From: a virus
Direction: 5' to 3' (one strand)
Virus record (IMG/VR): IMGVR_UViG_3300031885_000088
Coordinates: 1 to 27,693 of that record
DNA: 27,693 bases
The position numbers were made by a program, and so were the translations under genes. Below, piece by piece: positions 5 to 7,816 of the stretch (positions are counted from its first letter, which is position 1; each line of letters starts with the position of its first letter). Below the pieces are notes generated by a model, which saw nothing but the letters and a program-made list of their open reading frames with translations, was not told where the DNA came from and searched no databases.

Positions 5-670
5 ATGAAAATAAAAATAAAAAATAGATGGAATGGGAATATTATCTATGCGTGCGAAACTGAAAATTTAAAAATGGCGGTGGAGATGGCTGTAAAATTA
101 AAAATTAACTTGAGTGGAAGCAACTTGAGTGGAAGCAACTTGAGTGAAAGCGACTTGAGTGGAAGCGACTTGAGTGGAAGCAACTTAAGTGAAAGCGACT
201 TGAGTGGAAGCAACTTGAGTGAAAGCGACTTGAGTGGAAGCAACTTGAGTGAAAGCAACTTGAGTGAAAGCGACTTGAGTGGAAGCGACTTGAGTGAAAG
301 CAACTTGAGTGGAAGCAACTTGAGTGGAAGCAACTTGAGTGAAAGCGACTTGAGTGGAAGCAACTTGAGTGAAAGCGACTTGAGTGGAAGCAACTTGAGT
401 GAAAGCGACTTGAGTAGAAGCAACTTGAGTGAAAGCGACTTGAGTGGAAGCAACTTGAGTGGAAGCAACTTGGATTTTATATCTATCCCCATGTGTTGTA
501 AGAGTTTTGGGGTCAAAATTGATACGCGAATAGCATACCAGATGATTTTGCATGTTTTTGGAGCAGAAATTATTGGAGAAGGATCGGAAGAAATAAAAAA
601 AGCATTAGAACCATTTGCGAAAAAATCTGATAAATGGAAATATTTTGAAAAATATTTAAAGGAGAGATGA
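5..670 (+). CDS. Pentapeptide-repeat protein
   Basis: The 221-residue protein has a short N-terminal beta-like cap (MKIKIKNRWNGNIIYACETE), then from about residue 35 to 157 about 24 units of S(N/D)LS(G/E), then a non-repetitive C-terminus of about 64 residues. The units fit the pentapeptide-repeat consensus A(D/N)LXX with Ser in the Ala position, a fold known to form a right-handed quadrilateral beta-helix; 24 units would give about six coils. The start is kept because this N-terminal cap resembles those seen ahead of pentapeptide repeats in phage proteins, but only four bases lie upstream, so the RBS cannot be judged. Known pentapeptide proteins include DNA mimics that bind gyrase (Qnr, MfpA), but nothing here shows that function. 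The near-identity of the repeats at the DNA level suggests recent expansion. It precedes the recombination module in the same direction. Confidence 0.85.
   Translation: MKIKIKNRWNGNIIYACETENLKMAVEMAVKLKINLSGSNLSGSNLSESDLSGSDLSGSNLSESDLSGSNLSESDLSGSNLSESNLSESDLSGSDLSESNLSGSNLSGSNLSESDLSGSNLSESDLSGSNLSESDLSRSNLSESDLSGSNLSGSNLDFISIPMCCKSFGVKIDTRIAYQMILHVFGAEIIGEGSEEIKKALEPFAKKSDKWKYFEKYLKER
107..472 (+). repeat. 15-bp in-frame tandem array
   Basis: About 24 head-to-tail copies of a 15-bp unit close to AACTTGAGTGGAAGC, plus a partial copy, lie inside the pentapeptide gene. Variation is almost confined to two positions: AAC/GAC (Asn/Asp) and GGA/GAA (Gly/Glu). Other differences are rare, for example CTTAAGT near 184 and AGTAGAAGC near 415. 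Asn-Glu and Asp-Gly units often alternate, giving a 30-bp super-unit. Since the unit is a multiple of three, copy-number change would preserve the frame. Confidence 0.95.
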
Positions 671-4793: not shown

Positions 4794-5993
4794 ATGATTA
4801 CAGAATTAACGGAAACTCAAAAAAGTAAATTACCTGAATATGTAGATAAATGGGTAAAAATTGGATTGAATACTGAACCTGCAAATAGAGTTGAAGCAGA
4901 AAAGGGAATTGAATTAGCATATAAAATTGCAGGATTAAAAAAACCTAAAATTGTTTGGACATTATCACCACTGAGTAGTGGAATAACTAGATATTGTGTT
5001 TTTGGAATTTTAAAAAATATAACTAATAGCGTGGGGGATAGCATGGTAAATAGTGTGGGGGATAGCGTGCGGGATAGCGTGCGGGATAGCGTGGGGGATA
5101 GCATGGTAAATAGTGTGGGGAATAGCATGGTAAATAGCGTGCGGGATAGCGTGGGGGATAGCGTGTGGAATAGCGTGTGGGATAGCGTGTGGAATAGCGT
5201 GCGGGATAGCGTGCGGATTAGCGTGGGGGATAGCGTGGCAAATAGCGTGCGGGATAGCGTGCGGATTAGCGTGGGGAATAGCGTGTGGAATAGCGTGTGG
5301 GATAGCGTGCGGATTAGCGTGCGGGATAGCGTGCGGATTAGCGTGGGGGATAGCGTGGCAAATAGCGTGCGGGATAGCGTGGGGGATAGTGTATATGGTC
5401 AACACGATGCAAGTTGGTTAGGATTTTACGATTATTTTTACAATGAATTAAATTTAAAATCTCAAACTAAAAAATTAAACGGATTATGGCTTATTGCTAA
5501 AAATGCTAATTGGTTTTTACCACATAAAAATATATGTTGGATTTCAGAAAGACATGATATATGCAAATTAAAAGATGGAAAAATTCACAGCATAAATAGT
5601 CCTGCTATTCATTATCTTGATGGATTTGAGATTTACGCGCTGAATGGAGTTAGATTACCAAAAGAAATAGTTATGACTCCCGCCGAAAAGATTGACCCAA
5701 AAATAATACTCACTGAAAAAAATGCAGAAATTCGCAGAGAGCTCGTTAGAAAGATAGGAATAGAAAGAGTTATTTATAAATTAGGAGCAAAATCATTAGA
5801 TAAATCGGGAGATGGAATTTACGAGTTATTATCAATAAATTTAGGTGATGAACGATATAGACCATACCTTAAAATGAGAAATCCATCTATCCAAACATGG
5901 CATATTGAAGGTGTAGCACCAAATATCCGAACAGTAGAGGAAGCATTAAAATGGAGAAATCAGTCGGAAGAAAAACCAATACAATTAACGTAA
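4794..5993 (+). CDS. DUF6745-type protein with tetrapeptide repeat array
   Basis: The 399-residue protein has three parts: an N-terminal helical region (1-77, with ELAYKIAGLKKPKIVW), a low-complexity array of about 31 (N/D)SVX tetrapeptides (78-200), and a C-terminal globular domain (201-399). The C-terminus, with QHDASWLGFYDYF, NWFLPHKNICWISER, SPAIHYLDGFEIYALNGVRLP and the ending NIRTVEEALKWR, matches my memory of the DUF6745 family, whose members often carry such SVxx arrays. Biochemical function is unknown. RBS TTGAGGAGATAAA is strong. It is followed 14 bases later by a small gene that I recall as a frequent neighbour of this family. Confidence 0.8.
   Translation: MITELTETQKSKLPEYVDKWVKIGLNTEPANRVEAEKGIELAYKIAGLKKPKIVWTLSPLSSGITRYCVFGILKNITNSVGDSMVNSVGDSVRDSVRDSVGDSMVNSVGNSMVNSVRDSVGDSVWNSVWDSVWNSVRDSVRISVGDSVANSVRDSVRISVGNSVWNSVWDSVRISVRDSVRISVGDSVANSVRDSVGDSVYGQHDASWLGFYDYFYNELNLKSQTKKLNGLWLIAKNANWFLPHKNICWISERHDICKLKDGKIHSINSPAIHYLDGFEIYALNGVRLPKEIVMTPAEKIDPKIILTEKNAEIRRELVRKIGIERVIYKLGAKSLDKSGDGIYELLSINLGDERYRPYLKMRNPSIQTWHIEGVAPNIRTVEEALKWRNQSEEKPIQLT
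5025..5393 (+). repeat. 12-bp tandem array with 60/120-bp higher-order copies
   Basis: About 31 copies of a 12-bp unit related to GATAGCGTGCGG encode (N/D)SV(R/G/W) tetrapeptides. Larger duplications are visible on top: 5041-5100 resembles 5101-5160 (60-bp shift), and 5161-5260 matches 5281-5380 at a 120-bp shift with few differences, including an exact 40-base match (5221-5260 and 5341-5380). All periods are multiples of 12 and of 3, so the frame is kept. Confidence 0.95.
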
Positions 5994-6007
5994 AAGGAGA
6001 TAATAAA

Positions 6008-6322
6008 ATGGTCATACAACAAGGCGACGTGCTCATAGAATCAGTAAATGAAATACCAAATGAAGCAAAAGACGCAGAAGTGAAAAATGGAAGTATCGTG
6101 TTAGCAGACGGAGAAACTACCGGACATGCTCATAGAATATCATGGATTAGCGGTATAACATTCAAAGAACACAATGGCATGTATTATTTAGTCAACAAAG
6201 AAGAATTGACAGTAAAACATGAAGAACACAAACCTGTTACTATTCCACAAGGGACATGGAAAATTAGAAAGGTTAGAGAATACGACCATTTCGAAATGGA
6301 AAGTAGGGATGTTCGTGATTAA
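6008..6322 (+). CDS. Small conserved phage protein (target of HNH insertion)
   Basis: 104 residues from ATG 6008, preceded by AAAGGAGATAATAAA; an upstream in-frame ATG at 5951 lies inside the previous gene and lacks an RBS. The sequence MVIQQGDVLIESVNEIP, DGETTGHAHRIS and HEEHKPVTIPQGTWKI reads as an all-beta, jelly-roll-like small protein. I recall it from many phages and cellular DUF6745 neighbourhoods, usually ending in (R)EYDHFAEEARxVxD. Here the end is EYDHFEMESRDVRD. A second, more canonical-looking copy of this tail is fused to the C-terminus of the overlapping HNH gene, suggesting that the insertion replaced the native 3' end. Function unknown. Confidence 0.75.
   Translation: MVIQQGDVLIESVNEIPNEAKDAEVKNGSIVLADGETTGHAHRISWISGITFKEHNGMYYLVNKEELTVKHEEHKPVTIPQGTWKIRKVREYDHFEMESRDVRD
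6283..6322 (+). repeat. Target-gene 3' end, copy 1 (at the small phage gene)
   Basis: These 40 bases encode the last 13 residues and stop of the 6008 gene. They align without gaps to 6788-6827 (27 of 40 bases the same by my count, both ending GATTAA). In protein, YDHFEMESRDVRD versus NSHFAEEARNVAD. Confidence 0.65.
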
Positions 6323-6827
6323 ACATCCACTTTTTGGCTTAAAGCGTTCAGAAGAATTTAAAAACCATTGTAGAATTGCTGCTCATAAAAGAACTAAAAG
6401 AATTGGATATTATTTTTCGACTCTTGCTAGAAAAAATCAAGTACCTGGTATGCAAGGTAAAAAACATACATTAAAGACTATCAAAAAAATGAGTCAATGT
6501 AAAAAGGGAAGTAAAAATCCTTTTTGGCGTGGAGGAGTTTCAAAAGAAAGAGATAGATATTATAGTTCATATAAGTATAGAATTTGGAGAGAAAAAGTAT
6601 TTACTAGAGATAATTGGACATGTCAAAAATGTAATACTAGGAATGGAAATGGAGTAGAAGTTTATTTACAAGCTCACCATATTAAACCTTTTTATAAGTT
6701 TAAAGAATTGGTTTACATTGTTTCCAATGGTATAACACTCTGTAAAAAATGTCACTCTTTAACAGATACTTATGGTGGGAAAGCCAACAGCCATTTTGCA
6801 GAAGAAGCAAGAAATGTTGCTGATTAA
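6309..6827 (+). CDS. HNH homing endonuclease with NUMOD3 motif and captured tail
   Basis: 172 residues from ATG 6309, which lies within the end of the 6008 gene. An upstream in-frame ATG at 6219 lies deeper inside that gene. Residues about 45-75 hold a NUMOD3-type DNA-binding motif (GMQGKKHTLKTIKKMSQCKK, then NPFWRGG). The nuclease domain has C105/C108, the catalytic pair H123-H124 (QAHHIKP), N140 and C145/C148 (LCKKCH), so the zinc-bound HNH core looks intact. Such enzymes cut DNA lacking their gene and spread by homing. The last 13 residues do not belong to the HNH fold; they resemble the tail of the neighbouring small phage protein. No convincing RBS is seen. Confidence 0.85.
   Translation: MFVIKHPLFGLKRSEEFKNHCRIAAHKRTKRIGYYFSTLARKNQVPGMQGKKHTLKTIKKMSQCKKGSKNPFWRGGVSKERDRYYSSYKYRIWREKVFTRDNWTCQKCNTRNGNGVEVYLQAHHIKPFYKFKELVYIVSNGITLCKKCHSLTDTYGGKANSHFAEEARNVAD
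6788..6827 (+). repeat. Target-gene 3' end, copy 2 (fused to the HNH gene)
   Basis: This codes for the last 13 residues of the HNH protein (NSHFAEEARNVAD plus stop) and is the ungapped partner of 6283-6322. It is probably the original 3' end of the interrupted gene, displaced downstream by the insertion and still in frame. Confidence 0.65.
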
Positions 6828-6852
6828 TTAATTGCATAACCAATTAATTAAT
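6823..6852. repeat. Perfect 12-bp inverted repeat after the HNH gene
   Basis: ATTAATTAATTG (6823-6834) and CAATTAATTAAT (6841-6852) are exact complements around the loop CATAAC, and the HNH stop codon lies within the first arm. It may be a weak terminator or mark the edge of the inserted segment. It is entirely A/T apart from one G:C pair, so the hairpin is not strong. Confidence 0.6.
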
Positions 6853-6866
6853 AATATTATTATGGA

Positions 6867-7028
6867 ATGTTGATAAAATGCAAGAAATGTCCTACTAAAT
6901 ATGAAAGTAAAATATTTAAAGTTTGTCCTAGTTGCAAGAAGATAAAATTTGATTTTAGCCATAAGACAAGTATAAAATTATATAAAAATTCTATGGATTA
7001 TTATTTTATTGATTTTGAGCCACGCTAA
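6867..7028 (+). CDS. Small zinc-ribbon-like protein
   Basis: A possible 53-residue protein with two CxxC pairs (KCKKCP near residue 5 and VCPSCKK near residue 20), as in a small zinc ribbon, followed by a basic then aromatic tail (DYYFIDFEPR). No clear RBS precedes it. It lies between two HNH genes and may be an accessory fragment of the same mobile segment. The Cys spacing is the main support. Confidence 0.4.
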   Translation: MLIKCKKCPTKYESKIFKVCPSCKKIKFDFSHKTSIKLYKNSMDYYFIDFEPR

Positions 7029-7039
7029 TATTGCACTAA

Positions 7040-7080
7040 CCCGAGCAATCGTAGAGCTGGGCATCTCATTAAACTGCCCA
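7040..7080 (+). other. GC-richer patch with two competing hairpins
   Basis: The 60 bases from 7021 are about half G+C, clearly richer than the flanks. GGGCA/TGCCC (7059-7063 with 7075-7079, extended by one T-A pair at 7058/7080) makes one hairpin. CCC-AGC (7040-7046, one bulged G) with GCTGGG (7056-7061) makes another, using the same GGG. The pair sits directly upstream of the 7089 gene, which has no RBS. It could be a small control element or remnant sequence. Confidence 0.35.
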
Positions 7081-7088
7081 ATAAATTT

Positions 7089-7346
7089 ATGATAAAAAAA
7101 TATGAAATATATGATGGATTTGCGAATATACTTGATGATTATCCTATTGTAGAAGCAAAAACTGCAAGTGAAGCTGTTAGAAAATTTTTAATCAATTCAA
7201 AAATTATATTTACAAAAATTAAACGGAGTAAAACTAATAGTGTGCGAATATCCGCACAACCATTTATAGAAAAAAATGGAAATAAATATGCTAATGGAAT
7301 AAAAGTATGGTTTGAGATCTGGAATAAGGATAAATTATTATGTTAA
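7089..7346 (+). CDS. Hypothetical small protein
   Basis: The 85-residue protein begins MIKKYEIYDGFANILDDYP and has a mixed beta/alpha pattern, including a helix around ASEAVRKFLI and a final beta stretch (GIKVWFEIWNK). No RBS precedes its ATG; an overlapping upstream frame ends in ATGA at 7089-7092. Its end overlaps the HNH gene by 7 bases. Family not recognised. Confidence 0.6.
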   Translation: MIKKYEIYDGFANILDDYPIVEAKTASEAVRKFLINSKIIFTKIKRSKTNSVRISAQPFIEKNGNKYANGIKVWFEIWNKDKLLC

Positions 7347-7816
7347 AAATATGTCCAACTTGCAAAAAAGAATATAAAACTTATTATAATCGCCAAAAAA
7401 ATTGTTCTATTAAATGTAAAAATATTTATATGGGTTCTATCTCACCCAATGGTAGATTTAAAAAAGGTCATAAGTCATTATTTGCATGGAAAAAAGGAAG
7501 TCATATTTCACCATCAACAGAATTTAGAAAAGGCAATAGGCCAATAAATTATGAACCGATTGGAACAATTCACTCAAGAACAGTAAATAAAAAACAACAT
7601 TGTAATAATAAATTCATTAAAATTGCAGAACCAAATATCTGGGAGTCATTAAGTATTCATATCTGGAAAAAATATAATGGAAAAATACCTAAAGGAATGA
7701 TTATTCATTTTAAAGATTTAGATAATACGAATTATAAAATTAATAATCTTCAATTAATTACTAGAGCAAAACATATTAATATTCACAGAGATTTAATTAA
7801 TGCTTTTAAACTATGA
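7340..7816 (+). CDS. HNH endonuclease with N-terminal zinc ribbon
   Basis: The 158-residue protein starts with a zinc ribbon (C5, C8, C22, C26), a basic linker with repeated KKGH/KKGSH/RKGN motifs like NUMOD-type DNA-binding spacers, then an HNH_3-like domain (about 70-150) with WESLSIHIWKKYNGKIPKG, IIHFKDLDNTN and NNLQLITRAKHINIH. The usual HH pair of this family is H123-F124 here, so activity could be reduced. Asn and His later in the domain are kept. It overlaps both neighbours (7 bases upstream, ATGA downstream), which suggests an insertion between two adjacent genes rather than into one. It probably spreads by homing. Confidence 0.8.
   Translation: MLKICPTCKKEYKTYYNRQKNCSIKCKNIYMGSISPNGRFKKGHKSLFAWKKGSHISPSTEFRKGNRPINYEPIGTIHSRTVNKKQHCNNKFIKIAEPNIWESLSIHIWKKYNGKIPKGMIIHFKDLDNTNYKINNLQLITRAKHINIHRDLINAFKL

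Follow-up and report, generated by a model that had tools for sequence, protein, structure and literature searches.

A small gene in the virus DNA analysed here (the window; a 27.7-kb stretch of 27,693 nucleotides) has its 3' end present twice, the two copies flanking an HNH nuclease gene. We consider it highly probable that this nuclease gene is a free-standing homing gene whose insertion, within the last ~10 codons of the gene at 6008–6322, brought in a substitute 3' end and displaced the original tail.

The target, the nuclease and all of the elements described around them lie on the plus strand. The target (6008–6322) encodes a small phage protein assigned to phrog_27831 (E = 1.8e-11), in which the TGHxH and HEEH motifs are conserved; its current 3' end is the substitute tail HFEMESRDVRD (6287–6322), and the protein finishes ...VREYDHFEMESRDVRD before the stop. 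The nuclease ORF (6309–6827, initiating at either ATG 6309 or GTG 6315) overlaps the target's stop codon, its start codon(s) being contained within the last codons of the substitute tail, and a stretch at 6302–6308 within the same tail is, as judged by eye only, a possible Shine–Dalgarno sequence. At its other end, the ORF reads ...GGKANSHFAEEARNVAD and then stops: here the in-frame C-terminus of the nuclease is the displaced tail, HFAEEARNVAD (6792–6827). Deletion of 505 bp (for example 6290–6794, the inserted unit, whose edge is uncertain by a few codons) restores the canonical target ending, REYDHFAEEARNVAD followed by the stop. The coordinates and peptides given for both ORFs in the initial annotation proved correct.

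Pattern and profile scans yielded 83 non-redundant homologues of the target protein, the phrog_27831 family; single-sequence queries with the target against viral, genome and phage collections did not recover close homologues. The TGHxH and HEEH motifs are common to the homologues, and the family C-terminus is almost invariant, with EYDHFxEEARxVxD running directly into the stop: in an alignment of 57 tails, the seventh residue is Glu in 43, the eighth is Glu in 45, the twelfth is Val in 54, and the last is Asp in all 57. A fold search with a model of the target (mean pLDDT 70) gave no significant match. Upstream, and outside the insertion, lies the gene for a DUF6745 repeat protein (4794–5993; PF20530, 5e-22), the constant neighbour of the target in its relatives, which adjoins target homologues in ~110 loci. 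The two genes (4794–6322) form a conserved phage pair that occurs in either order across these related loci; the DUF6745 partner has long degenerate repeats (DSVGDSV... and DKVWAKV... in the relative L011), and the small partner has conserved His motifs. Very regular repeats, of the SDLSGSNLSES type, are also seen in a pentapeptide-repeat gene at the left end of the window (5–670). L011 is a syntenic relative that lacks the HNH gene: its DUF6745 and target genes are followed by a different gene, and its target protein, 51% identical to that of the window, has the single tail EYDHFAEEARVVRD. A search for a strain-level empty-site relative of the window phage found none.

To score the two tails, a profile was built from the 57 homologous tails, with 31,702 ORF ends in 80 HNH loci as controls. 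The nuclease end, AEEARNVAD, scores 34.7, which is the family maximum (family range 15.1–34.7), and the gene end, EMESRDVRD, scores 18.5, within this range and off-consensus; none of the control ends in the 80 HNH loci, and none of the other 1,612 ORF ends within the window, reaches the score of either tail. At the DNA level, the two ends match without a gap at 26 of 40 bases, or at 28 of 45; the initial annotation had rightly noted that GATTAA terminates both, but its count of 27 of 40 was one too high. Among 3,428 stop-anchored ends in the window, an identity of 23/37 is attained by one only, the pair itself. A chance likeness of the tails is rejected by these profile and DNA-end controls, together with the mismatched-locus null and the non-HNH gene-pair control described below. 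The nuclease-linked tail is closer than the gene's present tail to 74 of the 83 homologues, and to all 20 of the nearest, and is indeed the more canonical of the two, as the initial annotation had it. The homologue tails likewise support the original proposal of an insertion near the 3' end that supplied a divergent tail and left the first one fused to the nuclease, and they do not fit a family whose intact members have EMESRDVRD-like ends only. That the displaced copy is like those of the relatives, and the supplied copy divergent, is suggestive of replacement, the displaced copy being also the family consensus.

The nuclease carries Pfam HNH (2.6e-6) and NUMOD3 (2.2e-6) domains, both above the cut-off, as in NUMOD3–HNH free-standing phage endonucleases, and matches phrog_8446 (2.7e-17). 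The NUMOD3 motif (PF07460) spans 6456–6524 (residues 50–72) and the HNH core (PF01844) 6621–6758 (residues 105–150); within the latter, which has its metal and zinc ligands, the CxxC pairs, the HH and the N residues are intact, and the invariant columns are all present (Cys105, Cys108, His124, Asn140, Cys145, Cys148 and His149). In the AlphaFold model, the HNH core is confident, and residues 155–172 are predicted to be unstructured (pLDDT <50). The tail is taken to lie outside the HNH fold, as first proposed, because the alignments of HNH relatives extend only to approximately residues 149–161 of the window nuclease, no other HNH ORF among 80 HNH loci, at whatever site, has a FAEEARNVAD-type end, and the region is predicted to be unstructured; HFAEEARNVAD was accordingly rejected as HNH-family sequence. 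A second HNH gene in the window (7340–7816; HNH_3 type, E = 6.6e-13), a short distance downstream, is flanked by a short ORF and a VRR-NUC gene. The tail of this second nuclease bears no resemblance to that of the upstream ORF, and no capture is apparent there.

An intein is excluded by the in-frame stop at 6320. Phage introns often carry HNH ORFs, and excision would give the exact consensus tail, which invites the suggestion that a self-splicing intron joins REYDHF to AEEARNVAD, the substitute tail being intron read-through. However, the HNH ORF fills nearly all of the 505 bp, and the sequence at which the intron would start codes for a family-like tail with its own stop; moreover, an Rfam scan of the window returned no family at gathering score, and a permissive scan of 5900–7200 (E up to 10) returned no intron family, and with it no ribozyme core. 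Such an intron is, in our judgement, very improbable.

The same anatomy recurs behind unrelated genes. We surveyed 145 non-redundant HNH ORFs with a candidate upstream gene, comparing stop-anchored tails and taking mismatched loci as the null: 13 of them share the tail of the upstream gene at a score of ≥22 (0.22 expected), and nine do so at ≥30 (0.08 expected). Of 525 ordinary pairs of neighbouring genes from these loci, only two reach a score of 22, both in one locus (Fisher p = 1e-7). The best cases are L257 (21 aa), L267 (a DNA methyltransferase, 24 aa), L248 (DTSSARYF) and L283 (capsid-like, by eye), with L216, L036, L103 (a phosphoesterase), L243, L071 and the L082/L214 pair adding to these. 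The targets are diverse: among them are a methyltransferase, a phosphoesterase, and proteins that are fibre-like or capsid-like. The nuclease genes that share a tail all start ≤60 nt from the target stop. L086 and L272, the weakest of the 13, may be chance matches, and neither these nor L226 are relied on individually. When the tail search was unanchored, 26 loci were found, against 2.4 expected, including out-of-frame tails and tails lying directly past the nuclease stop (L043, L044, L223 and L077; in L043 the two copies read SCRYTFQSA and SCKYTFASA); L045 was rejected as a captured tail, being a tandem HNH pair. In-frame capture is thus common and not obligatory, given these out-of-frame and post-stop examples. 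Approximately 90% of the surveyed HNH genes lack an in-frame tail duplication, so that 3'-end replacement would be one among several modes of insertion. Tail-sharing at about one in 10 related nuclease genes suggests a repeated phage strategy of inserting and repairing the host gene, and the initial annotation's description of gene restoration as unusual for a free-standing HNH gene no longer holds, as other HNH genes carry the tails of different upstream genes.

Several of these loci have further features. In L257 (1911–4920), a glycosyltransferase is split between two ORFs; where they meet lies an HNH gene in which 21 residues from the first of them are repeated, with ATGA stop/next-start overlaps retained at both stops. 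A family of small structural-type genes with the tail VLTIA (L082, L213, L214 and L255) has at least three different HNH genes behind its 3' end, and in L255 a captured tail is not visible. In L239, two adjacent non-HNH gene pairs (583–1635 and 2047–2886) have common C-termini (EGLGAKGKQ and EGLGMKGKE, before and in a DNA methylase), and are possibly decayed or unrecognized elements of the same kind.

Recurrence also bears on the origin of the second tail in the window. Tandem paralogues occur in phages, and a second copy of the target, its body replaced by the HNH gene and its tail left as a remnant, would likewise account for a second family tail. Further remnants of such a copy are not visible, however, and the shared tail begins right past the HNH core at many unrelated targets, a coincidence that is hard to credit across all of these; we therefore regard a tandem-copy remnant as distinctly improbable.

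The codons of the paired tails indicate what kind of selection they may have experienced. A pooled set of 13 cases (126 codons), which includes L082 (score 21) and L214 (score 19) and omits L086 and L272, contains 37 identical codons, 49 synonymous differences and 40 non-synonymous ones, and the base differences at codon positions 1, 2 and 3 number 40, 21 and 75, respectively. Divergence is almost purely synonymous in both copies at L248, L082, L036 and L243: the VLTIA copies of L082 use five different synonymous codons, leaving no identical codon in the shared tail, and of the codons for DTSSARYF in L248, five are synonymous and three identical. Because the codon differences are mostly synonymous and at third positions, both tail copies have evidently been coding and under protein-level selection, which suggests that one of them derives from a divergent homologous gene. 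In the window, where five of the 11 residues differ and there are only two synonymous changes, this signature of a foreign but functional tail is weaker than in L248 or L082.

These patterns weigh on two further explanations. Homologous tails on both sides of an insertion, with no donor identified, might also arise had the insertion doubled the target's own tail, much as in a long target-site duplication, with the upstream copy subsequently drifting and nothing foreign involved. Drift predicts the reverse of the arrangement in the window, where it is the gene-tail copy that is divergent and the nuclease-fused copy that is canonical, and a redundant copy would not keep the near-pure synonymous divergence of the four loci above; local duplication is, therefore, unlikely. 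Alternatively, the upstream copy could be a DNA operator that resembles the homing site, its peptide likeness being incidental: operators of this type are described upstream of the I-TevI, I-TevII and I-TevIII ORFs, with autorepression by I-TevI (PMC2988022). This we find scarcely credible, as third codon positions hold 75 of the 136 differences, and identity is tied to the reading frame and the stop; the shared tail of L082 contains no identical codon.

Intact relatives of other targets are consistent with these comparisons. L306 (EBPR siphovirus 2 gp76), which is HNH-less, ends GVLTLA and matches both VLTIA copies of L082, and intact phosphoesterases end INRLMKEYK (L311) or LRYLKEKYA, comparable to the RLMEMY and RLLEMY of L103. 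A filled and empty pair exists in the Zobellviridae at a phosphoesterase–MazG junction (PQ867841 with and PQ867852 without the HNH gene), in which the nuclease belongs to a different type (HNH_3) and the repeat is very short. For the L248 target, a viral scan for HNH-less relatives returned just the L248 contig itself.

Our best reading is that the HNH gene would move by homing and take along a target 3' end of foreign origin, an arrangement that would keep the target working, probably make it uncuttable, and preserve its coupling to the neighbouring genes; cleavage, mobility and resistance we infer from the yeast and mitochondrial precedents described below. At its 5' edge the element would carry the target's 3' end in a divergent version, stop codon included, so that the target protein would be completed by the element, with the nuclease start overlapping that stop. 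The original tail, pushed 505 bp downstream, would then supply, in frame, the last codons of the nuclease. In a co-infecting phage, the nuclease would be expected to cut the intact target 3' end, and repair would copy the substitute tail along with the nuclease gene, using the target body as the left homology arm and the displaced tail as the right. The substitute tail, presumably of foreign origin, would no longer match the cut site and would thereby protect the new host gene.

The usual picture of free-standing homing genes in phages is of harmless intergenic residents. Homing elements that replace a 3' end have so far been described chiefly in fungi, and a literature search, with subscription papers outside its coverage, found no description of such replacement for phage HNH genes. 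We lean, if only slightly, towards the view that an appreciable proportion of the free-standing HNH genes of phages act as natural home-and-rescue elements, in which a recoded target 3' end keeps the gene working, uncuttable and translationally coupled, with the old 3' end fused to or lying just behind the nuclease; the 11-residue repeat at the ShiLan insertion (see below) would fall into the same class. If so, a recurring class of gene-end elements that provide their own host-gene repair would account for the ability of nucleases to enter compact genomes and to use conserved genes as targets, and would offer a natural parallel to engineered recoded-rescue elements. A target tail repeated at the nuclease C-terminus would, moreover, be a simple signature for cleavage sites without recourse to biochemistry. 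The C-terminal residues of many annotated phage HNH proteins would not be nuclease sequence, and the genes beside them may have foreign ends.

The initial annotation drew its analogy from integrases at tRNA genes, but a better match is provided by homing elements that replace gene 3' ends (PMC7282813, PMC3630166). Among phage systems, the free-standing T4 homing endonuclease genes mobE, segC, segF and mobA similarly overlap the end of the upstream gene, with translational coupling; they differ in that insertion is described as intergenic and the cleavage sites as distant, and a search of passages from PMC2988022 found no tail duplication. The ShiLan HNH insertion in a mycobacteriophage DNA methylase is neither intron nor intein (PMC11855218). 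Translated in the frame of the host gene, its first 11 residues are similar to the 11 that follow the insertion site, and the DNA similarity of these repeats is below their protein similarity; unlike the window element, it lies within the gene and keeps the reading frame open, with no stop intervening. The authors weighed the repeated residues solely as an intron signature (PMC11855218); the insertion probably belongs to the class described here.

The mobile ORFs of Glomus mitochondria (with atp6, atp9, cox2 and nad3 hybrids), with which an Allomyces atp6 case is cited, share the outline of the phage anatomy: a foreign C-terminus is inserted together with an endonuclease ORF and expressed, and the native C-terminus is displaced downstream, the two Glomus atp6 ends having identities of 63.5% at the DNA level and 91% at the protein level (PMC3630166). 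The differences are that the nucleases are LAGLIDADG or GIY-YIG enzymes, the genomes are those of organelles, the tails are longer, and, in the passages of PMC3630166 consulted, the displaced tails are not described as nuclease-fused. The WHO elements of Torulaspora and Lachancea home into FBA1 and replace its 3' end, the old fragment downstream serving as the second homology arm (Coughlan et al. 2020, PMC7282813). As in the window, the nuclease gene is directly downstream of its target, homing swaps the target 3' end, the old fragment stays beyond the nuclease, and the new 3' end is proposed to be resistant (PMC7282813). It is on this shared outline with the WHO elements and the Glomus mobile ORFs that we propose homing with replacement of the target 3' end. 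WHO elements, however, reside in nuclear yeast genes, mostly at FBA1, with ~400-bp fragments and an intein-like zinc-finger nuclease related to HO (PMC7282813), whereas the phage elements have an HNH nuclease (HNH/NUMOD3 in the window), tails of usually 5–24 codons, many targets, and an old tail that is usually fused in frame. Overall, we conclude that the window element works like a WHO element, yet is not a member of the WHO family proper.
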